Source of the DNA: Euzebya sp.
Lineage (GTDB): Bacteria; Actinomycetota; Nitriliruptoria; Euzebyales; Euzebyaceae
Assembly (NCBI RefSeq): GCF_964222135.1
Contig: NZ_CAXQBR010000026.1
Span: forward strand, 1 to 64,000
Length of the DNA stretch: 64,000 nt
Direction of reading: 5' to 3'
Shown here piece after piece: positions 9,743-48,384 of the stretch (positions are counted from its first letter, which is position 1; every line of letters begins with the position of its first letter). Position numbers and translations under genes: made by a program. The notes beneath the pieces are model-generated. The model ran no database searches. It worked only from the letters and a program-made list of their open reading frames with translations, and was not told the DNA's origin.

Positions 9743-9797
9743 CAGCGGGAGTGGGGGTGGCGTGGGTCGGACGGTGCGCTCGGACCGCCCTTGCGCT

Positions 9798-9922
9798 CAG
9801 ATCTGAGCGGTGCCTCCGCCGGGGCACCTCTGTCCACGATCTAAGCCGTGGCGCCGTCGCAACAGGACCGAGATCTGAGCCGTGCCTCCGCCGGCGGACC
9901 GCGGCCCCAGATCTGAGCTGGG
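9798..9922. repeat. Four spaced copies of an AGATCTGAGC element
   Basis: Copies start near 9798, 9837, 9870 and 9908. Two of them (9798 and 9870) extend to AGATCTGAGC(G/C)GTGCCTCCGCCG; the second has the variant GATCTAAGCCGTG and the last is AGATCTGAGCTGGG. Centre-to-centre spacing is about 33-39 bp. The block fills the space between the stop of the LAATG-ending pilus protein and the BldC-like leader. The function is unknown: operator cluster or decayed repeat. Confidence 0.6.
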
Positions 9923-14163: not shown

Positions 14164-14275
14164 GGTGCGTGCGCGAGGCAGCTCGGCTCACCACTTGCCT
14201 GAATGATGATGTGTGGCTCGTGGTCCCGTGGCTTTGCGTCCCGGCCTCACGGCCGGTTTGCCCGTTCTGCACACC
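14164..14275 (-). ncRNA. Cyclic-di-GMP-I (GEMM-I) riboswitch
   Basis: The minus strand carries the GEMM-I core: GGGCAAACC (about 14263-14255), a GGCC-GTGA-GGCC stem with a GNRA loop (14254-14243), then GGGACGCAAAGCC and ACGGGACC (14242-14222). These are the conserved c-di-GMP pocket and P1b elements. The second arm closes with CCAC/GTGG and the tetraloop-receptor-like AGCCGAGCTGCC (14188-14177). GGTGTG (14274-14269) can pair with CGCACC (14169-14164) as P1. It ends about 40 nt before the pilin ATG. The class is recognised by motif; on or off switching was not determined. Confidence 0.9.
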
Positions 14276-38030: not shown

Positions 38031-40187
38031 GTGACCACGCGACGCCCCACCCCCCTCCACCTCGCCGCGGGGGTGGTCCTGGCGGTGCTGCTCGCCGCCC
38101 TCCTCCCCTCCCCCTCGGCTGCCCAGCCCGAGGTCAACGCCGACGGCGACACCCTGTTCGTCGTCAAGGCGGACGAGACGCCGTCGAACGCCGAGATCGC
38201 GGCGCGGCTCTCCACCGAGACCTTCGGCGAACCCGCCGCTCGGGTCGTGATCGGCCGGGACGACGAGTTCGCCGACGCGCTGGCGTCGGGCCTGCTGCAG
38301 CGCGACGCCCCGCTCCTGCTGGTCCCGACCGACGGGCCCATCCCGCCGGTCGTGGCCGACGAGCTCGACCGGCTGGCGCCGGAGGAGGCGGTGGTCCTCG
38401 GCGGTGAGGCCGCGGTCGGCCCCGCCGTGGTCGCCGAGCTCGCCGACCGCGACATCGACGTGACCCGCTACGCCGGGGCGTCGCGGCTGGAGACCGCCGT
38501 CGCGGTCGCCGAGGCCGAGTCGCCCGCGGCGGACACCGTCATCCTGGCCCGAGCGTTCGGCGCGGAGGGGTCGACGGACCCGACCCAGGCCTACGCGGAC
38601 GTGATCGCCGCCGGCGGGCTGGCGGCGGCCAACGGGTGGCCGGTGCTGCTGACCGCCACCGACTCCCTGCCCGCCACCACCCGCGCGCACCTCGAGGCGC
38701 ACGCCGACGACATCGACACCGTCGTCGTGCTGGGCGGCACCGCCGCGGTCAGCGACGCGGTGCTGGCCGAGGCTGTCGCGATCGTCGGGGACGGCGAGCG
38801 GGTGGCCGGCCCGAGCCGCGCGGCGACGGCGGTGGCGGTGGCCGCGAAGCGGGGCGCCCCCACGGCTGCCGACGCGGCATCCGTGATCCTCGTGGACGGC
38901 AACGACGTCGTCGACTTCACCCAGGACCGCTTCACCCAGGGCGGGGTCCTGGCCGGGCCGGATGCGTGGGCGGCCGGGTTCGCCGCAGCGGCCCTGTCGG
39001 GCCGCACGGGTGCGCCGATCCTGTTGTCCGCAGGGGCGACCCTCCCCCCGGAGACCCGCGACCACCTGGCCGGCGGCCTGACCGGCCGTGACGGGGTCGC
39101 CCTGGTGTGCCTCACCAGCACCCGCGCCTGCGAATCCGCCCGCATCGCCGGGGGGCTGGCACCGCCACCCCCCGTCGAGGGACGGATCGTGTTCGAGGGG
39201 TCGGGCGGCATCGCCGGTGACGCCGACATCTACGAGCTGGCGGCCGACGGGGCCGTCGACGTGGTGGCGAGCGACGCGCACTCGGCCGTCGCCGCACCCG
39301 ACGGGTCGGCGTTCGCCTACACCCAGCTCGACCGCTTCGACGGGAACCACCAGCTGGCGGTGGCCACGCTCACCCCCGGCCAGCCCGCCGGCGCAGACGT
39401 CCGGGTGGTGGCCGACGGGCTGCTGAACCAGGGCGGTCACGACTGGGCGGCCGACGGCAGCGCGATCGCCACCCGACTCCAGGGCGGCGCGCTCGTCACC
39501 GTCGACACCGATGGGGCGTCGGCGCCGGTGCCGCTGGACCTCAGCCCCTACGAGAACGGCTTCGACGACCTGGACTGGCTGGACGGCATCCAGATCCTGT
39601 CGGCGACGACGGGTGAGGAGGTGGTGCTGGCCCGCCGCGACGGCTCCGCCGCCCCGCAGGTGCTCGTGCCGCCGGCCCCACCCCTCACCCTGATCAGCGG
39701 TCCGCTGGTGTCGCCGGACCGCACACGCGTCGCGCTGTCCTACGCCGACTTCGAGGGACAGGGCCGGGGCGGCATCCGGATCCTCGACCTGCCGACCGGC
39801 CAGACCACCACCGTCCCCGGCACCGGCGACGGGCTGTTCTACCCCGACGAGTGGTCGCCGGACGGCACCCAGCTGCTCGTCGACGTCCAGGGCGGTCTGG
39901 GCTACAGCGTCGCCCTGGCGACGGTGCGCGCGAGCGCGACGGCGGACTCCGCGCCCCGGCTGGTGATCGGCGGGGACGAGTCCCAGGGCTGGTCGGGGAC
40001 GTTCAGCCCCGACGGCACCACCCTGGCGGTGCAGGGACGCTTCGATGGCACCTACGGCGACGGGACACCGATCGCCGAGCCGGGCCTGCACCTCATCGAC
40101 GTGTCCACCCGCACCGGCCGGCTGCTGGTCAGCCAGGAGGACGTGCGGCTGTTCACCGCCGGCGACGTCCTGTGGCTGCCGCGGTGA
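38031..40187 (+). CDS. CWB2 cell-wall protein with C-terminal beta-propeller
   Basis: 718 aa. Signal peptide (about 1-32), three CWB2 repeats (about 35-370) with GRDDEFADALASG, VVLGGEAAVG and RLETAVAVAEAE motifs, ending in the C-x6-C pair CLTSTRAC. CWB2 triplets bind secondary wall polymers. The rest is a PD40/WD40-like beta-propeller with repeated SPDG.-, DWAADGS- and WSPDGTQLLV-type blades. It is probably an exported, wall-bound sensor or scaffold. AGGAA precedes the GTG start. Confidence 0.88.
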   Translation: MTTRRPTPLHLAAGVVLAVLLAALLPSPSAAQPEVNADGDTLFVVKADETPSNAEIAARLSTETFGEPAARVVIGRDDEFADALASGLLQRDAPLLLVPTDGPIPPVVADELDRLAPEEAVVLGGEAAVGPAVVAELADRDIDVTRYAGASRLETAVAVAEAESPAADTVILARAFGAEGSTDPTQAYADVIAAGGLAAANGWPVLLTATDSLPATTRAHLEAHADDIDTVVVLGGTAAVSDAVLAEAVAIVGDGERVAGPSRAATAVAVAAKRGAPTAADAASVILVDGNDVVDFTQDRFTQGGVLAGPDAWAAGFAAAALSGRTGAPILLSAGATLPPETRDHLAGGLTGRDGVALVCLTSTRACESARIAGGLAPPPPVEGRIVFEGSGGIAGDADIYELAADGAVDVVASDAHSAVAAPDGSAFAYTQLDRFDGNHQLAVATLTPGQPAGADVRVVADGLLNQGGHDWAADGSAIATRLQGGALVTVDTDGASAPVPLDLSPYENGFDDLDWLDGIQILSATTGEEVVLARRDGSAAPQVLVPPAPPLTLISGPLVSPDRTRVALSYADFEGQGRGGIRILDLPTGQTTTVPGTGDGLFYPDEWSPDGTQLLVDVQGGLGYSVALATVRASATADSAPRLVIGGDESQGWSGTFSPDGTTLAVQGRFDGTYGDGTPIAEPGLHLIDVSTRTGRLLVSQEDVRLFTAGDVLWLPR

Positions 40188-40212
40188 CGTCGCCGTCCGG
40201 CCGGCCGGCGGC

Positions 40213-41034
40213 TCAGTAGGCCGATGCCTTGAACGTCCAGTGCCACGGCTCGCGGGCGACGTCCTCGACGAAGCCGTAGGTCGCGCCGTGCTCGCGCATC
40301 CAGGCCTGGGCGCGGTCGTCGAGGTCCAGGTCGATGGACAGCCCCCAGCCGTGGTTCGAGCTGCCGGGCGCGGCCGCGCGGCCACCCTGGCTGTAGAGGC
40401 CGTAGCGGTCGACCATCGCCTGCTGCCCGGCGAGGTCGCGGTAGGAGGAGTTGACGCCGAACGACACCCCGTCCCGCGCCGCCGCGGCGACCATGTCCCG
40501 GAACGCGCGGGCCGCCGGCTCCCACAGCGTGTGGTCGCCGACGCCCACCGACGCGAGGGCGGCGCTCGGGATCTGGCCGTTGCCGTAGGCCTGCAGCTCC
40601 GGTGGCGGACCGGACCGGTCCAGGGCGAGTGGTCCGCTGGTGGTCCGCCCGCTCGCGCCGACCGGGGCGACCCCGGCGACAGCGGTGCCGGTGCCGGCGC
40701 CAGGCAGCGCCGGGCTGATCAACCCGGGGGTGGAGGTGAGGGACACGCCGGCGCCCAACCCGACCGGTCGCTGGAACCCCGCGTAGGTCGCCGCGCCGGC
40801 GGCGGGAGCCCCGGCCGGGGAGCCCTGGGCGTCCAGCTGGGTCTGCAGGGTCGCCGCGACGTCACCGCCGGCCGGCGCCGCCCCGGACGGCGGGGTCGAG
40901 CGGAGGCTGGCGATGGCGGCGATGCGCTGTGGGATGGTGTGGAGGCCGATGTCGGGTCGCATGGTCGCGTGCTGCACGCTCGCAGCGTCGGGGACGACGG
41001 AACCGGCGACCTCCGTGTCGCGCGACCTCCTCAT
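40213..41034 (-). CDS. M15B (VanY-type) D,D-carboxypeptidase
   Basis: 273 aa. The C-terminal VanY domain (about 145-273) has SSYRDLAGQQ, then zinc ligands H228 and D235 (SNHGWGLSIDLD) and H265 (EPWHW). It should trim D-Ala or cut stem peptides. Residues 1-140 are low complexity with an IPQRIAAIASL motif often found at the start of actinobacterial cell-wall hydrolases. No clear signal peptide is seen, and the start could be the ATG at 40962. It follows the CWB2 gene by 41 nt. Confidence 0.85.
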   Translation of the reverse strand: MRRSRDTEVAGSVVPDAASVQHATMRPDIGLHTIPQRIAAIASLRSTPPSGAAPAGGDVAATLQTQLDAQGSPAGAPAAGAATYAGFQRPVGLGAGVSLTSTPGLISPALPGAGTGTAVAGVAPVGASGRTTSGPLALDRSGPPPELQAYGNGQIPSAALASVGVGDHTLWEPAARAFRDMVAAAARDGVSFGVNSSYRDLAGQQAMVDRYGLYSQGGRAAAPGSSNHGWGLSIDLDLDDRAQAWMREHGATYGFVEDVAREPWHWTFKASAY

Positions 41035-41075
41035 CGGCCGCGGCCGCCGACCCCTGCGCGGTCGGCGTCCTGGCC

Positions 41076-43658
41076 CTAGCGCTGCGCCTCGCTCGACAGG
41101 CGGTGCTCGGTCCCGTCGTCGGTGGCGCGGACGGTGATGGTCCCGAGGACCTCGCCCCGGTCGATCAGCGCCAGCTGGTTCTCGAACTGGGCCAGCCCGA
41201 CGGTGTCACCGTTGATCACGTACACGTCGGAGCCGCCGAAGATCGACGAGGTGTAGTCGAGGTCGTCGTAGACGATCCCGGCCTGGACGGTGACGTCGTA
41301 GGTGTTGGCGCCCTCGGTGATGTCGGTCACCTCGCCGCTGAGGTCGCGGTTGACCAGGGCGATCTCCTCCGGCGTGCCGGTCGCGGGGTCTCCGACCTGG
41401 TAGCTGACCGCGTCGCCGGCGGTCCGGGCGGCCTCGAACTCCTCCTCGGTCGCCACGCGGTCGTCGATGCGGAACACCGCGTCGGCGGAGTAGCTGACCA
41501 GGATCCGGCCGTCGACGGTGAGGGCGACGATGTCACCGCCGTCGGCGGGCTCGGGCGCCGCGGCGCTGCCGTCCGGATCGAAGGTCTCGGTCACCGTCCC
41601 CGCGACCGGCGGCACCGGCGCGTTGTCGATCTCGAAGGCCTCCACCCCTCCCCGGCGGTCGTACGTGACCTCGTCGCCGACGCTGAGCGCCTCGGCGAAT
41701 GCGGCGAAGTCGGTGTCGTCGCCGTCGACCTCGAAGGTCTGGGCGTCGGTGCCGGCGCGGGCGCGGAAGCGGTCGTCCTCGGCGGTCAGCGGGTCGTCGC
41801 CGAGCCCGCCGATCCGCAGCCGTGCGATGCCGCTGACCGCGTCGACGCTGATGTCCAGGGCGGGGCCCTCGACGACCCGGTTGCGGAGGCGGATCGAACT
41901 GGTGGTGAGGGAGACCTCGTCACCCTCGTTCGCGTTCGCCTCGAACCCCTCCCGGGTGCTGGCCTCGCCGTCGACCTGGTACGCGCGGTCGTCGGTGATC
42001 TCGAGGCCGGGGCGGAGCACCACGCCGGTCACCGGCTCGACGATCGCGAACGTGCCGGCGGCGACGTCGACGTCCCCGAGGGTGCCGCTCGAGATCGTCG
42101 CGGGATCGACGTTGACGAGGTCGTGGACGTCGCCCTCCGCGGTGTCGGCGGTGAAGGTGACGCGGTCTGCGACGGTGACGGCGGCCTCGAAGGCACCGAT
42201 GGTGGCCGGCTCGCCGTCGACGGTGAAGACGTCCTCGTCGTCGTACGACACGGTGAGGGGCACGTCGGCGTCGGTGGCCACGAACGTGTAGGCGTCCGAC
42301 CCGGTGGAGGTGCCGACGACGATCCCCTCGGCGGGGATGGCCGGGTCGACCAGGATGACCACGTCGGTGGTCTGGACCGAACCGTTCTCGTAGGCGATCT
42401 CGAAGGTGATCGTGCAGGGGCCGGGCTCGGCGGCGATCTCGACGGCGAACCCGCCGTCGGCGTCGGTCGTGAGCAGCCCCTCGGTCACGCACTCCCCGAA
42501 GACCGCGACGCGGGCGGGGACGTCGAAGGTGTCGATCGTCCCGATCAACGGGGTGCGGGAGGGGATGGGCTGCTCGGAGTTCTCGAAGGTCAGCTCGGCC
42601 TGGGCGGGGAGGCCGAGGAGGATGCGGGCCTGCTCGCACGCGGTCGCGCTGGTGGCGCAGACCAGGACGGGCTCGTCGACGTCGGTGGCGTCGACGGCGA
42701 ACGTCTGGCTGGTCGAGATCAGGAACTCGGTGGTGGCCGGCGGCAGGGTGTCGCCGTTGGCCAGCAGGACCGGCGCCTCGGCGATCGCGCCGTGGGCAGC
42801 GGCGGCGAACCCGGCGGCCCAGGCGTCGTCGGCCTGGCCCTCGACGAGGATGATCCGCTCGGCCTCGGCGGCGGAGTCGAACCCGCGTGCCTCGGCGATC
42901 GCGGTCGCGGTGTGGAACCGGGTCGGGCCGGCGACGCGGTCCACGTCGATGTCGAGCGCCTCGATGGCCTCCTCCACGTCGGTGCCGATCGCGGCCTCGC
43001 CGCCGAGGAGCATGACCCGGTCGACGTCGCCGTCGGTCAGGAAGGCCTCGGTCTCGACGGCCAGGTGGTCGGTCTGGGTCAGCAGGATCGGCCAGCCGGT
43101 CTCGGCCGCCCACGCGCCGGCGGCGAGGGCGTCGGCGAAGGCCTGCGTGTCGTCCCCGGCGGCCCCGAAGGCCCGGGCGACGATGGCGGTGGAGGGGGTC
43201 TCGGCCTGCTCCGCGACCTCGACGGCCGTGGCCAGGCGGGTCTCCCCGGCCAGGCGGGCGACGTCGAGGCCGAGGTCCTCGAGGTCCTCCTCCACGTCGG
43301 CGTCGATCGCCGCCTCGCCACCGAGGATCGTGACGTCGGTGGCCTCGAGCCGGTCGATCTCGGCGGCGACGTCGTCGTCGAGCTCGTCCGGGCCGGTCAG
43401 GAGGAGGGGGCTGTCGCCCTGCAGGGTGCCGGAGGCGAGGGCATCGGCGAAGGTCTCGGTGGTCGCGAGCAGGACCTCGGTGACCGCGTCGTCCTCGGTG
43501 AACGTCGCCCGGCTGAACCGGAGGGCGATCTCGGTGGGGTCGAGGTCGACGTCGTCGCCGCGGATGTCGATCGTGTCCGACACCGCCCCGACGGCAGGGC
43601 CGGCGAGCAGCCCGAGGGCGAGCATCGCGACGGTCAGCAGGAGGGTGAGGTGGCGCAC
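41076..43658 (-). CDS. CWB2 protein with five-fold repeated C-terminal domain
   Basis: 860 aa. Signal peptide (1-25), three CWB2 repeats (about 40-345) ending in CATSATAC (C-x6-C), a CARDB/filamin-like stretch, then five copies of a unit of about 60-90 aa: a (V/A)(F/Y)xVDG opening, (A/S)T...FEAA, and GDxVxY, in the last ~400 residues. The repeat family was not recognised. It is very acidic, as expected for a surface protein. GTG start with GAGAG 6 nt upstream; a TAGCAT box near 43720 may be its promoter. Confidence 0.88.
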   Translation of the reverse strand: MRHLTLLLTVAMLALGLLAGPAVGAVSDTIDIRGDDVDLDPTEIALRFSRATFTEDDAVTEVLLATTETFADALASGTLQGDSPLLLTGPDELDDDVAAEIDRLEATDVTILGGEAAIDADVEEDLEDLGLDVARLAGETRLATAVEVAEQAETPSTAIVARAFGAAGDDTQAFADALAAGAWAAETGWPILLTQTDHLAVETEAFLTDGDVDRVMLLGGEAAIGTDVEEAIEALDIDVDRVAGPTRFHTATAIAEARGFDSAAEAERIILVEGQADDAWAAGFAAAAHGAIAEAPVLLANGDTLPPATTEFLISTSQTFAVDATDVDEPVLVCATSATACEQARILLGLPAQAELTFENSEQPIPSRTPLIGTIDTFDVPARVAVFGECVTEGLLTTDADGGFAVEIAAEPGPCTITFEIAYENGSVQTTDVVILVDPAIPAEGIVVGTSTGSDAYTFVATDADVPLTVSYDDEDVFTVDGEPATIGAFEAAVTVADRVTFTADTAEGDVHDLVNVDPATISSGTLGDVDVAAGTFAIVEPVTGVVLRPGLEITDDRAYQVDGEASTREGFEANANEGDEVSLTTSSIRLRNRVVEGPALDISVDAVSGIARLRIGGLGDDPLTAEDDRFRARAGTDAQTFEVDGDDTDFAAFAEALSVGDEVTYDRRGGVEAFEIDNAPVPPVAGTVTETFDPDGSAAAPEPADGGDIVALTVDGRILVSYSADAVFRIDDRVATEEEFEAARTAGDAVSYQVGDPATGTPEEIALVNRDLSGEVTDITEGANTYDVTVQAGIVYDDLDYTSSIFGGSDVYVINGDTVGLAQFENQLALIDRGEVLGTITVRATDDGTEHRLSSEAQR

Positions 43659-43840
43659 GGCAGTCTCTCGCGTCGGCGTGGCCCCGGACGGCAGACCGGG
43701 GTCGGGCTTGGCGGTGGATGCTAGAACGCCACCGCGTCAGGGTCGTGGCACTGACGCGCGCGGGCGGTGGATCGGTGCGGGGGTGGGCGGGGTGGCGGGG
43801 CCGGTGTGGGCGAGGGCGAGCGGCTCGCGTGCGCCATTCG

Positions 43841-44055
43841 CCCACGGGTCACTCGCGGGGACGTCGCGACGACCTCCCGCCCCGCCATGCACCCACGGGT
43901 CCCTCGCGGGGACCCCGCGTCGACCTCCCGCCCCGCCAGTCGCCCACGGGTCACTCGCGGGGACCCCGCGACGACCTCCCGCCCCGCCAGTCGCCCACGG
44001 GTCACTCGCGGGGACCCCGCGACGACCTCCCGCCCCGCCATGCGCCCACGGGCTC
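43841..44055. repeat. 51-bp tandem repeat with internal palindrome
   Basis: Copies begin at 43841, 43892, 43943 and 43994, with a partial fifth at 44045. Each unit opens CCCACGGGTC and contains TCGCGGGG-a-CCCCGCGA, a 17-bp perfect palindrome, in copies 2-4; copy 1 has a changed right arm (ACGTCGCGA). The array fills the divergent gap between the CWB2 gene and nudC (43659-44096). No start codon with signals reads through it. Confidence 0.85.
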
Positions 44056-44096
44056 CTGGCGGTAGTGCCGCCGGGGGCGGCGACGATCGTGTCGCC

Positions 44097-44102
44097 TACG
44101 CT
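44097..44102 (+). promoter_or_regulatory. Leaderless -10 box of nudC
   Basis: TACGCT ends 7 nt before the GTG at 44110, right after the tandem repeat array. Confidence 0.5.
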
Positions 44103-44109
44103 TCGCCCG

Positions 44110-44919
44110 GTGGAGCACCCCGACGTCGCCGCCGCCCTGGATGACCCCTCGATCACGGTCGTCGTGACCCGACGACGCGACGGACACGTCGTGGTGGTCG
44201 AGGGCGGGTGGCCGGAGGGGGCAGACGTCGCCGAGGCCCCGATCGTCGTCGCGCCGGGCGTGATGAGCGTCGTGGTCGACGACGGCGACCCGCTGCCCGT
44301 CGGGGAGTTCACCGACGCGCGGACGGCGATGTTCAGCGTCGCGGAACCCGAGGTGCTGCTCGGGGCGATCGCGTTCGGTCAGTGGCGGGCGCGGGAGCGG
44401 TTCTGCTCGCGGTGCGCCAAGCCGCTGTCTCCGGCCCGTCGCCCCCGGACGCTGGTGTGCCCCGAGGGCCACCTGGCGTTCCCGCGCATCGAGCCGGCGG
44501 TGATCATGCGGGTCGTCGACGCCGACGACCGGCTGCTGCTGGCCCGGCAGCCGTCGTGGATGGAGGGGAGGTTCAGCGTCCTCGCCGGGTTCGTCGACCC
44601 CGGCGAGCGGCTCGAGGACACCGTCCGCCGCGAGGTGACGGAGGAGGTCGGGAGCACCGTCCGCCAGGTCGACTACGTGACGAGCCAGCCCTGGCCGTTC
44701 CCGTCGTCGCTGATGCTCGCGTTCCACGCCGTCGCCGAGACCACCGACATCCGGCTGGACGACGACGAGATCGCCGAGGCGGAGTGGTTCACCCGCGAGG
44801 AGCTCGAGGTCGCGATGGGAACCGGCCGGGTGGGCCTGCCCCCTCCCCTCTCGGTCGCCCACAAGCTGGTGTCCTCGTGGTTCGGTCGGCCGCTCGCGAC
44901 CTGGACCGCGGGACGCTGA
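44110..44919 (+). CDS. nudC: NAD+ diphosphatase
   Basis: 269 aa. It cleaves NAD(H) and NAD-capped RNA. Zinc site CSRC ... CPEGH (fourth ligand appears to be His rather than Cys), then a canonical NUDIX box GFVDPGE-x7-REVTEEVG and the NudC signature SQPWPFPSS. An N-terminal domain of about 85 residues precedes the zinc ribbon. Longer readings of the frame pass through the 51-bp repeats and are rejected. Confidence 0.93.
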   Translation: MEHPDVAAALDDPSITVVVTRRRDGHVVVVEGGWPEGADVAEAPIVVAPGVMSVVVDDGDPLPVGEFTDARTAMFSVAEPEVLLGAIAFGQWRARERFCSRCAKPLSPARRPRTLVCPEGHLAFPRIEPAVIMRVVDADDRLLLARQPSWMEGRFSVLAGFVDPGERLEDTVRREVTEEVGSTVRQVDYVTSQPWPFPSSLMLAFHAVAETTDIRLDDDEIAEAEWFTREELEVAMGTGRVGLPPPLSVAHKLVSSWFGRPLATWTAGR

Positions 44920-44983
44920 CCAGCGTCGAGTCACGGCGCCGGCGCCGAGATCGGGCACCGAGGTTGGGCGCGATCGGGGCCTC

Positions 44984-45001
44984 CTTCGCCTGACGGCGAA
45001 G
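44984..45001. terminator. Shared hairpin between convergent nudC and galE
   Basis: CTTCGCC-tgac-GGCGAAG forms a 7-bp stem with a 4-nt loop. GGCGCGATC-like sequences flank it on both sides (about 44967-44975 and 45004-45013). It probably ends transcription from both sides. Confidence 0.55.
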
Positions 45002-45024
45002 TTCGGCGCGATCCTGGCGGCCTG

Positions 45025-45960
45025 CTAGGCCCGCATCGCGTCCCAGGCGTCCGCGATCCCGTCGCGCAGCGACCGCGTCGGTCGCCAGCCGAACATCGCC
45101 TCGGCCTTCGAGGCGTCCGCCACCAGCTCGGGGGGGTCGCCGGGCCGACGGTCGGCCTCGACCACGTCGATCGTGCGGCCGGTCACGTCCTGCACGGCGT
45201 CCAGCACCTCGCGGACCGTCGCGCCGTCCCCCGTCCCGAGGTTGACGATGTGGTGGACACCGTCCTCGAGCACGTCCAGCGCCATCAGGTGGGCGTCCGC
45301 CAGGTCCACCACGTGGACGTAGTCGCGGACCGCGGTGCCGTCCCGGGTCGGGAAGTCGGTCCCGAAGACGGTGAACGTCTCACCCGTTGCGCCGCGCAGG
45401 AGGTTCGGGACGAGGTGGGTCTCGGGGTCGTGCCGCTCGGTCCGCCCGCGGTACGCACCGACGACGTTGAAGTAGCGGAAGCTCATCGCCGCCAACCCGT
45501 GCGCCGTCGCGTACGACGTCAGTGCGTGGTCGAACGCGAGCTTGGTCATGCCGTAGGCGTTCACCGGCGCGGTCGGGGTCGCCTCGGTGATCGGGAGCAC
45601 CGCCGGCTCGCCGTAGACCGCGCAGGTCGAGGAGAAGAGGATCCGCTGGACGCCCGTCACCCGCATGGCATCCAGCAGCGCCAGCCCCTCCCCGAGGTTG
45701 TTGGCCCAGTGCTTCTCGGGCTGGGCGACCGACTCCGCGACCAGGGCATCCGCGGCGAGGTGGACGACGAGGTCGAACGAGCCGTCCAGCACCTCCCCGG
45801 CCCGCGACAGGGGCAGGTCCACGAACACGGCGTCCCCCACCGCGTCGGCGTGGCCCTGCCGCAGGTCGTCGAGGACCACGACCTCGTGGCCCTCCTCGGC
45901 GAAGCGGGCGGTGACCACCGATCCGATGTAGCCGGCTCCTCCGGCGACGAGCACCTTCAT
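45025..45960 (-). CDS. galE: UDP-glucose 4-epimerase
   Basis: 311 aa. Rossmann GGAGYIGS, SSTCAVYG with the catalytic Ser/Thr region, the YGMTK YxxxK pair, FRYFNVVGA and RDYVHVVDLADAH are all standard GalE features. It interconverts UDP-glucose and UDP-galactose for wall or surface glycans. TAGCCT lies 7 nt before the ATG, so the transcript is probably leaderless. Confidence 0.92.
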   Translation of the reverse strand: MKVLVAGGAGYIGSVVTARFAEEGHEVVVLDDLRQGHADAVGDAVFVDLPLSRAGEVLDGSFDLVVHLAADALVAESVAQPEKHWANNLGEGLALLDAMRVTGVQRILFSSTCAVYGEPAVLPITEATPTAPVNAYGMTKLAFDHALTSYATAHGLAAMSFRYFNVVGAYRGRTERHDPETHLVPNLLRGATGETFTVFGTDFPTRDGTAVRDYVHVVDLADAHLMALDVLEDGVHHIVNLGTGDGATVREVLDAVQDVTGRTIDVVEADRRPGDPPELVADASKAEAMFGWRPTRSLRDGIADAWDAMRA

Positions 45961-45967
45961 CGCGCGA

Positions 45968-45973
45968 AGGCTA
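45968..45973 (-). promoter_or_regulatory. Leaderless -10 box of galE
   Basis: TAGCCT on the minus strand, with exactly 7 nt to the galE ATG; same spacing as alaS, sppA and nudC. Confidence 0.55.
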
Positions 45974-45996
45974 GCCGCGGGCCACGTCCGCTCCGG

Positions 45997-48384
45997 TCAC
46001 TCACCGCAGGGCCACCGCCCGCCCTGCAGGCTGGTCACGACGTCGGTGTCCTCCGGCCCCGAGAGGTACGCCGTGGTGTCGTCGCCGAGGTCCGCGGACC
46101 ACGAGAGGTAGTCGACCTCCGGCTCCCGGGGTTGCGCGCCGGGGACGCGGGACTGCAGCTCGGCGACCGTCATGCCGACGGTGACACCGGCAGGGGTGGC
46201 GATCACCGGATCCGTCCCGTCGACGACCCACAGCTGCAGCACCCCCTCGTAGGACTGGACGCTGAGTCCACCCCAGATCACACGACTGATCCGCTCGGCA
46301 CAGGCGTCGACCGGGTTGGCGGGCGCCGGGTCGCTCGGCCGGGCGGGCATCACGGCGTCCGGCTGGCCGAGCACCGCGGTGAGCGCCTCGACCGCCTCGT
46401 CCTCCGGCGTGCCGATCGCCACGCCGGCGAGGGCACGACCGTCACCCTCGACCGCATCCCCAACCGGGTCCGGCGGCAGCTCGCCGACGGCCTGGCGGGT
46501 CACGGTGGTGCTGACCGCGACCGGGCCGCCGTAGACGACGAAGGTCGTCAACCCCTCGTCCTCGATGAACGACGCCAACGCCGCGGGCATCCCCGCGCCG
46601 GGCGTGAGCAGGACCGGGATGCCCCGATCGGCCGCGTGCACGGAGCCTGCAAGCCCATCTGGGAAATCCTCCCCTGACGCGAGGGCGGCAACCCTCGAGC
46701 TCAGGTCGAGGTCGAGGGTTCGTGCGACGTCGATCGACAGCTGCGTCGGATCCGCACCCGGGATGACCCGGTCGACGTCCGGGGACCACATGGCGCTGTC
46801 GCCCACCTGGATGGCCTCTGCGGAGGGGTTGGCGGCGACGTAGTCCACGCCTGCGCCGCCGGAGACGACGACCGCGTCGGCCGCTGGGCCGGCGACCGCC
46901 CCGGCGAGGATCCCGGGTGGGAAGGTGCCGCCGTCGACGAAGAAGATGCGCTGCGGGTCGTCGGTGACCGCATCGGCGATCGCGACGGAGGTCTCGCCCC
47001 GGCCGACGCCGGCCAGGCGCACGACCTCGAAGCCGAGCGCCCGGACGTCCTCGGCCACCTGCTCGGACAGCACGGCGGTCCCCCCGACGAGGTGGACGGT
47101 GGCGCCCGGGCTGACCGCGCGCTCGAGCTCGGCCGCGGTATCGGGGTGCAGCGCGTCCAGGCCGGACAGCAGCAGCGGTCCACGTCCGGCGGCGAGCGGG
47201 GTGGCGGTCTGGGCGTCGGCGAAGTTCCCCGCCGTGGCGATCACGGCGGTCTCCGCGGCGCCATCAGGCCACAGGTCGCGCGAGATCGCGATCGCCGTCT
47301 GGACGCGCGTGACGCCGAAGAGCCGCTCGATCCCGTCGGGGTCGTCGACCGGCGGCGGTCCGGGAGGCGGCGGCGGGGCTCCCGCCGCCACGGGGGCGAA
47401 GGTGTGCCCCGTCCCCCCTCCACCCGGAAGGGCGATGCCCCCGCCGCCGATGCCGTGGACGCCGGCGGAGCCATCGGCGTCAGCGCCGGCGACCAGCTGC
47501 CCGTCCGCGGACACGTCGGTGATGACGTCGAGGGACAGCGGCAGCTCGGTCGACCCGCAGCAGCCGGACGCGTCGGTCGACCGCACGGTCACCGACGGCC
47601 CGCCGTGGCGGTCGACGAAGAGGAGCTCGCCGGTCCCCTCCACCGGCTGCATCGAGTACACGCCGAGACCGCTGCGGTCCCGGCCGTCGTCCAGGATCCG
47701 CTCCTCGGCCTCGGTGTCGAGGTCCACGGCGACGATGCCGTCGTCTTGGCCGTCGAGCCCGGTGACCGCCAGCCGCGAGTCCGGCAACCACCCGACGTTC
47801 CCGTAGATCAGGCCGTAGCGGACCCCGCCGTCGGTGTCGACGACGAGGACGTCGCACTCGCCGATGTCGCCGAAGCAGGCGGTGAAGACCAGGAACCGCC
47901 GGTCGGGAGAGGCCACCACCCCGGGCCGGTAGACCGTGGCCGCGGGTGCCGCGGAGTCGAGCGGCCAGATCTGGCGGGCGGGCGCCTGCCCGTCGGAGGT
48001 GAAGGCCTGCACCCCCTCCTCGGTGATCACCGCGACCCAGCGGTCGTCGAGCCACGCGACCTCCCCGGGCGCCGGCGCGATCGCGGTCGCGAGCTCGGTG
48101 ACCCGACCGTCCCGCACGTCCGCCACGGCGAGGCGACCGGACGCGTCGAGGCTGGCGAGCCGGGTCCCGTCGGGCGACCAGGACGGCACCCCGGCGATCG
48201 GGAACTCCGCGCTCGCACCCGTGGCGAGGTCGTCGACGACCACCCGGTCGCCGCTGTGCGCCAGGTAGGCCACCCGCGCATCCGGCGGGTCTGCCTGCCC
48301 GGCCGCCGGCGGCACGACCAGCGCCAGCAGCACGCCGAGCACCCCCACCACCGTCGCAACCGCACGCCGTCGCCCGTCTCCCAT
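45997..48384 (-). CDS. CWB2 protein with N-terminal beta-propeller
   Basis: 795 aa. Signal peptide (about 1-30), then a PD40-like propeller (about 35-310; SWSPDGTRLA, NVGWLPDSRLAV), then three CWB2 repeats (about 350-640; RVQTAIAIS, VHLVGGTAVLS, FADAQTATPLA). This is the reverse order of the protein at 38031. The tail (about 650-795) has a conserved-looking domain with GVTVGMTVAELQSRVPGA and three cysteines. It lacks the C-x6-C end seen in three of the other CWB2 blocks. Confidence 0.87.
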   Translation of the reverse strand: MGDGRRRAVATVVGVLGVLLALVVPPAAGQADPPDARVAYLAHSGDRVVVDDLATGASAEFPIAGVPSWSPDGTRLASLDASGRLAVADVRDGRVTELATAIAPAPGEVAWLDDRWVAVITEEGVQAFTSDGQAPARQIWPLDSAAPAATVYRPGVVASPDRRFLVFTACFGDIGECDVLVVDTDGGVRYGLIYGNVGWLPDSRLAVTGLDGQDDGIVAVDLDTEAEERILDDGRDRSGLGVYSMQPVEGTGELLFVDRHGGPSVTVRSTDASGCCGSTELPLSLDVITDVSADGQLVAGADADGSAGVHGIGGGGIALPGGGGTGHTFAPVAAGAPPPPPGPPPVDDPDGIERLFGVTRVQTAIAISRDLWPDGAAETAVIATAGNFADAQTATPLAAGRGPLLLSGLDALHPDTAAELERAVSPGATVHLVGGTAVLSEQVAEDVRALGFEVVRLAGVGRGETSVAIADAVTDDPQRIFFVDGGTFPPGILAGAVAGPAADAVVVSGGAGVDYVAANPSAEAIQVGDSAMWSPDVDRVIPGADPTQLSIDVARTLDLDLSSRVAALASGEDFPDGLAGSVHAADRGIPVLLTPGAGMPAALASFIEDEGLTTFVVYGGPVAVSTTVTRQAVGELPPDPVGDAVEGDGRALAGVAIGTPEDEAVEALTAVLGQPDAVMPARPSDPAPANPVDACAERISRVIWGGLSVQSYEGVLQLWVVDGTDPVIATPAGVTVGMTVAELQSRVPGAQPREPEVDYLSWSADLGDDTTAYLSGPEDTDVVTSLQGGRWPCGE

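Follow-up and report, generated by a model that had tools for sequence, protein, structure and literature searches.

The 51-bp tandem repeat upstream of a nudC-like gene in Euzebya sp. is one locus of a dispersed family of intergenic palindromic arrays

The window, that is, the whole 64-kb stretch of Euzebya sp. DNA that was analysed, carries a tandem array between two divergent genes, one encoding a cell-wall-binding (CWB2) protein and the other a NUDIX, NudC-like protein. The array belongs to a family that we call F1, and copies of two further dispersed families, F2 and F3, lie in the same window. The features are as follows:

41076-43658, minus strand: gene for the cell-wall-binding (CWB2) protein (open reading frame and Pfam domain)
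43830-44063, plus strand: F1 array of five 30-bp cores and four 21-bp spacers (Tandem Repeats Finder, core positions and same-genome BLAST)
43830-43859, plus strand: core 1, diverged, PWM score 16.0, absent from the covariance-model matches at E ≤ 0.1
43881-43910, plus strand: core 2, nearest to the family consensus, PWM score 27.4, covariance-model E 0.0013
43932-43961, plus strand: core 3, same sequence as core 4 (covariance model and score matrix)
43955-43971, no strand: 17-bp palindrome TCGCGGGGACCCCGCGA of unit 3, repeated at 44006-44022, made of the right arm of the core and spacer
43983-44012, plus strand: core 4 (covariance model and score matrix)
44034-44063, plus strand: core 5, the 'part unit' of the first-pass annotation (covariance model and score matrix)
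44097-44102, plus strand: TACGCT, a -10-like hexamer 7 nt before the nudC GTG, read by eye only
44110-44919, plus strand: nudC-like gene with a NUDIX domain (Pfam); zinc-ribbon match below cut-off
44953-45018, plus strand: F3 copy between nudC and a convergent epimerase gene (pattern match)
9796-9918, no strand: F2 copy, CTCAGATCTGAG boxes at steps of 72 and 38 (pattern match and Tandem Repeats Finder)

Tandem Repeats Finder located the strongest array of the window at 43832-44052 (score 379; 4.3 copies of period 51, matching at 92% and free of indels); the second-best array scores only 150. The 51-bp minisatellite reported by the first-pass annotation is therefore real, with coordinates slightly shifted from those first given (43841-44055), and the divergent arrangement of its neighbours was correctly described. 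The first-pass annotation counted four full units and a part unit; by the family core, the array comprises five cores, which start at 43830, 43881, 43932, 43983 and 44034, every step measuring 51 bp. Units 3 and 4 are identical in sequence, making a recent duplication likely. The 17-bp palindrome is exact in these two units, whereas unit 2 carries a single mismatch and unit 1 carries two, so that the earlier remark that the changes between units lie mostly outside it, except in unit 1, is nearly right but overlooks unit 2. The array has a core at both ends, with a similarity to the spacers of 0.29 and 0.38 outside, compared with 0.96 inside.

The nudC start lies 47 bp downstream of the array end. 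A consensus sigma-70 scan of the nudC upstream region found no promoter, leaving the 'nudC promoter' of the first-pass annotation unsupported; the TACGCT hexamer, judged by its letters, may constitute a leaderless nudC promoter. The nudC matches in three congeners display 53-55% identity, and the F1 array is absent upstream of all three. In congener G001, a different, 15-bp tandem repeat (L131:1334-1397) ends shortly before nudC. Three CWB2 (PF04122) genes are clustered around nudC and the epimerase gene, at 38031-48384 of the window. A search of the window against Rfam at gathering thresholds detected nothing beyond a c-di-GMP-I riboswitch aptamer on the minus strand (14174-14272, E 3.3e-07), which lies away from the array.

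The nudC repeat is one locus of a dispersed intergenic family, F1, with about 30 arrays in this one genome. BLAST of the nudC array against its own genome (5.06 Mb, 111 contigs) yielded C64 (9.2e-20), C76 (6.8e-9) and C87 (9.9e-7), each of them a tandem array of period 51. These matches provide independent proof of kinship, since the score matrix with which the census was made derives from F1 itself, including the units of the nudC array. Unit alignment defined a shared 30-bp imperfect palindrome, CCCGYCATCGMCCCRYGGGYGCMYSRCGGG, repeated head-to-tail with about 21 unrelated bases in between. With the score matrix, 122 units were counted in 35 entries, 31 of which contain at least two units; a few weak units (scores 13-15) are included, and the cores of the nudC array, scoring 16.0 to 27.4, rank among the most diverged of the family. 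A score of 13 was reached by a single site (14.8) in 400 kb of background elsewhere in the genome and by no site in 400 kb from each of two congeners, the congener samples being too small to exclude families of their own at F1 density. A two-core pattern with a free gap of 22-50 bp matched 46 times in the Euzebya sp. genome, compared with no match for the reversed control. The covariance model returned 112 matches at E ≤ 0.1 in the same genome, of which at least two fall on the opposite strand of a copy already counted; since this search scored only 150 of 12695 candidates, weak copies will have been missed. The palindrome TCGCGGGGACCCCGCGA is particular to the nudC array: the longest perfect one per entry elsewhere (35 other entries) spans 6-17 bp and is a different sequence, even at C3, where it too is 17 bp long.

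Several entries required curation. The two entries of C14 (L043) lie at one place. C43 (L122), which was dropped from the counts, and C73 probably hold the two halves of one longer array. L119 was left out of the spacer and array-end analyses as a copy of L118, and the core alignment retained 82 of 85 units, with three further rows dropped. F1 arrays occur at the contig ends of C43, C58, C61, C73 and C84, which shows only that arrays break the assembly.

We then considered the genomic setting. Genes beyond the window were called with a simple codon-usage script, and gap geometry relied on genes scoring above 25. The edge entries L044, L117, L118, L119 and L123, which have one side without a called gene, and one duplicate contig end were excluded; the two C14 entries were merged, a weak outlying unit inside a gene was trimmed from L057, and a low-scoring open reading frame over the L039 array was set aside. 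Both neighbours were called for 29 arrays: 14 of these lie in convergent, nine in same-strand and six in divergent gaps. Convergent gaps are over-represented relative to ordinary gaps (14/29 versus 17/193, p = 1.1e-6), and also when only gaps of at least 150 bp serve as the baseline (14/29 versus 6/73, p = 1.7e-5), the baseline including the gaps of the window itself. Divergent gaps are not significantly avoided (6/29 versus 57/193, p = 0.38; versus 30/73 long gaps, p = 0.07). According to Pfam, 20 neighbours chosen from about 58 are a mixture of enzymes, a transporter, a tRNA synthetase and regulators, three having no family match, and a second CWB2 gene adjoins the F1 array L055. A TetR-family gene lies 24 bp from array C98; its matches in the congeners are weak TetR relatives and its best other match (45%) is in another family. 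We regard its product as only a lead to an F1 binder. Among the loci fetched, and with F3 copies and short or coding matches set aside, long flanks are shared solely by C58 and C61 (159 bp at 98.7%), and copying of whole arrays together with their flanks was rejected on this ground.

The most regular property of F1 is its pitch. Chaining of the cores permitted any step up to 170 bp; exactly 51 bp was found in 69 of the 87 core-to-core steps and 50-53 bp in 84, the others being 64, 99 and 112. With ties assigned to the first and two duplicate entries removed, 51 is the commonest step in 25 of 30 arrays. No common sequence was detectable in the spacers of different arrays, their identity in register being 0.3276, compared with 0.3281 when columns were permuted; spacers within one array range from identical to unrelated. 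The spacers thus keep their length without keeping a sequence, suggesting that length is under constraint. Indels do arise, as indicated by small length changes among similar spacers, and seem not to persist over longer times. A rough neutral-drift simulation, run under assumed rates of 10-24 substitutions per spacer and 0.05-0.15 indels per substitution, put 13-62% of spacers at exactly 51, and 36-62% at the lowest indel rate, so that low assumed indel rates weaken the case for constraint.

Inner spacers are alike (≥0.6) in 16 of 25 arrays. In these 16, the flank continues the spacer on the left in four cases and on the right in two, and at neither end in 11; over all 25 arrays, it does so five times on the left and four on the right. 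Flank-spacer similarity is on average slightly higher (0.466 and 0.446, 25 arrays) than the 0.359 expected by chance. Arrays that end at cores fit growth by core-core recombination from a founding pair.

The core itself has dyad symmetry (0.562 versus 0.326 in permuted sequences, a value reached by 4 of 5000 permutations). Its left half is nearly invariant, its right half is far less conserved, and symmetry is lacking at the three positions that separate the outer arm from the central CCCRYGGG. The outer arms pair in 77.7% of cells, compared with 25-44% when slid against each other. However, none of five pairing measures beats shuffling of the 3' letters, and no covariation was found in the outer stem, double-sided changes occurring in 8 cells versus 11.8 in shuffles. 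This absence of covariation favours DNA over RNA as the level at which the symmetry acts, and a hairpin RNA family was rejected, as the arms pair as sequence only. Single units fold only slightly better than shuffled sequences: mean z is -0.82 on one strand and -1.04 on the other, and on each strand 21 of the 85 units fall below -2.

F2 consists of CTCAGATCTGAG boxes at steps of 38, 34 and 38 bp. It occupies 24 distinct places, rows L194 and L196 being duplicates of L209 and L205; 16 of these have exactly four boxes, and none has more. Its pattern gave 74 strand-wise matches in the Euzebya sp. genome and none in six other genomes; the places are mostly between genes, nine of the 24 being convergent. 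F3 is a dispersed element around GCGATCGGGGCCTNNNTCGNCTGANG with a hairpin-like TCGCC-TGA-GGCGA centre, and has 49 matches with at most one mismatch in its own genome and none in the six others. It lies beside F1 in C104, C58, C61 and C29. Two rows of each of these families overlap a called gene.

F1 appears, from sequence searches, to be private to the species. The exact two-core pattern is absent from 60 relatives, three of which are congeners, and the covariance model at E ≤ 0.01 had no match in 30 other genomes. Over 84,980 species, the exact pattern had one match, in Streptomyces jumonjinensis (L085:195-256), where a core resembling F1 lies in a tandem repeat of about 47 bp with about three copies; we judged it to be probably a chance match and rejected it as a relative. 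Viral contigs contained no match to the exact two-core pattern; plasmids searched with the nudC array and phages searched with the C67 array gave none at 1e-5. F1 is not described in the limited open-licence literature searched, including the available part of the RepRanger paper (PMC12306157).

Taken together, these results lead us to favour, tentatively and at somewhat below an even chance, the reading that F1 is a REP/BIME/MIRU-like family whose preserved pitch reflects rows of dimer-binding sites. Each core would be the site of a dimeric DNA-binding protein, and the 51-bp pitch, about five helical turns, would place adjacent dimers on the same face of the DNA, allowing them to act jointly. 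Such rows could act at gene ends as a local boundary of the chromosome or of transcription, and would grow or shrink by core-core recombination, the spacer being copied along. The nudC array would then lie upstream of a gene start by happenstance; a side effect on nudC is possible, outside any general role of F1. The constant pitch, the unlike spacers, the dyad symmetry without stem covariation, the core-bounded ends and the convergent bias all argue for this reading. Binding of a protein was the better of the two proposals made in the first-pass annotation, which as a whole is partly supported; the likely site is the 30-bp core rather than the 17-bp palindrome, which the other arrays do not have. 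Several observations weaken the reading as dimer rows. If indels are rare, a single ancestral doublet could account for the constant pitch; the loose right half and asymmetric inner positions do not look like a clean dimer site; and the comparable family F2 holds to steps of 38 and 34 bp, neither a whole number of helical turns. Moreover, divergent gaps are not significantly avoided, flanks are slightly nearer to spacers than chance, and the nudC cores are among the most diverged. A bolder version is unlikely: a species-private, protein-bound boundary in which the 51-bp pitch is selected and spacer sequence is irrelevant, building ordered nucleoprotein filaments at gene ends, with the four F2 boxes at 38-34-38 bp as a second such code.

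It is quite possible, on the other hand, that F1 is a selfish or passive repeat of the REP, REPIN or MIRU kind, a doublet spread by a transposase since lost or unrecognised. Its 51 bp would then be the founder spacing, and removal of promoter insertions would leave arrays at gene ends. Copy number, size, extragenic location and convergent bias fit REP families as described in the accessible portion of PMC3733652, two further dispersed families occupy the same genome, and F1 occurs in none of the relatives searched. By contrast, no Y1 transposase (RAYT) was found in any of six genomes, Euzebya sp. included, by a search that was positive in 5 of 14 controls, and a RAYT-driven REPIN was rejected, no PF01797 protein having been found. 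In most REP families, according to the same portion of PMC3733652, head-to-tail pairs are missing, fewer than expected or negligible. The retention of spacer length without common sequence and the near absence of long flank homology among the fetched loci, C58 and C61 being the one exception, also argue against a passive repeat.

Action in RNA, as bidirectional terminators or 3'-end stabilisers, is decidedly unlikely. The convergent enrichment, with arrays frequently near stop codons, and the symmetric, pairing arms of the core are what such a function would lead one to expect, but the stem lacks covariation, folding is weak, no terminator-like site with a T run was found at the nudC array, six of the 29 arrays are divergent, and the nine same-strand arrays are oriented five with and four against their genes.

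Tuning of nudC and the CWB2 gene by the unit number of a local minisatellite, as first proposed, is very improbable. The array does end close to the nudC start, units 3 and 4 point to recent duplication, and another CWB2 gene adjoins L055. As a general role, however, tuning of two flanking genes is unsupported, given some 30 sister arrays, mostly beside unrelated genes and mostly in convergent or same-strand gaps, and the nudC genes of three congeners stand without an array. This case cautions that what looks like a 'minisatellite' at a single promoter can have sister loci throughout the genome.

There is next to no chance of a CRISPR-like array with a near-palindromic 30-bp repeat and 21-bp spacers, since, despite the regular lengths and some arrays with all-different spacers, Cas1 was not found in the genome by a search positive in 9 of 14 controls, spacers in many cases nearly duplicate one another, and the loci are some 30 and scattered. 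A coded 17-residue repeat can be practically dismissed as well: 51 is divisible by three and frames are open across the nudC array, but 17 of the 87 F1 steps are not multiples of three, breaking the frame, and the 29 arrays with two called neighbours sit between confidently called genes.

How, then, does F1 compare with known repeats? REP elements, according to the available part of PMC3733652, are imperfect palindromes of 20-40 bp, often in more than 100 copies, extragenic and favouring convergent and same-strand gaps. Such elements also frequently form clusters with regular spacing. F1 resembles them in this, in its 30-bp core with dyad symmetry, its 122 units, its location between genes and its mainly convergent or same-strand setting (14 + 9 of 29, with six divergent). 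It differs in rows that are strictly head-to-tail at one near-fixed pitch and in a stem without compensatory change. The same text links GTAG families to RAYT transposases, CGTC families seeming to have no dedicated one. GTAG and CGTC are the unpaired end tags of two large REP superfamilies. Beside the F1 core, neither the preceding 5 bases nor the following 7 hold a conserved column, and the only CGTC lies within the left arm, in the minority of units (22 of 85) whose fifth core letter is T. Palindromic repeats of bacteria are in many cases accounted for as non-autonomous relatives of a REP transposase; here, a genome with no detectable Y1 transposase holds three dispersed families, of which two combine fixed spacing with varying spacers, and this points to a length-sensing constraint. 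Were a protein behind F1, the family would represent a boundary element, or one that organises the chromosome, in a bacterium beyond the well-studied species.

BIMEs are REPs at regular spacing and in alternating orientation, and BIME-2 binds gyrase, as stated in the part of PMC2817692 at hand. F1 and the E. coli BIME-2, likened here by description from that source, share rows of palindromes in gaps and differ in unit order: the units of an F1 array share one orientation, C14 having the sole adjacent opposite-strand unit, and gyrase binding belongs to BIME-2, whereas binding for F1 is our deduction. The MIRUs (mycobacterial interspersed repetitive units) of M. tuberculosis, also an actinobacterium, in the accessible section of PMC3914561, are tandem repeats of 46-101 bp at 41 loci, with unit number differing between strains at 12 of the 41. 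F1, with 51-bp tandem units in 35 entries, is like them in size and dispersal, and differs in sharing only 30 of its 51 bp between loci. In conclusion, F1 is of the general REP/BIME/MIRU kind but departs from it in tag, transposase, stem covariation and alternation, and is a new form of intergenic palindromic repeat, apparently private to the species, whose pitch is unusually constant.
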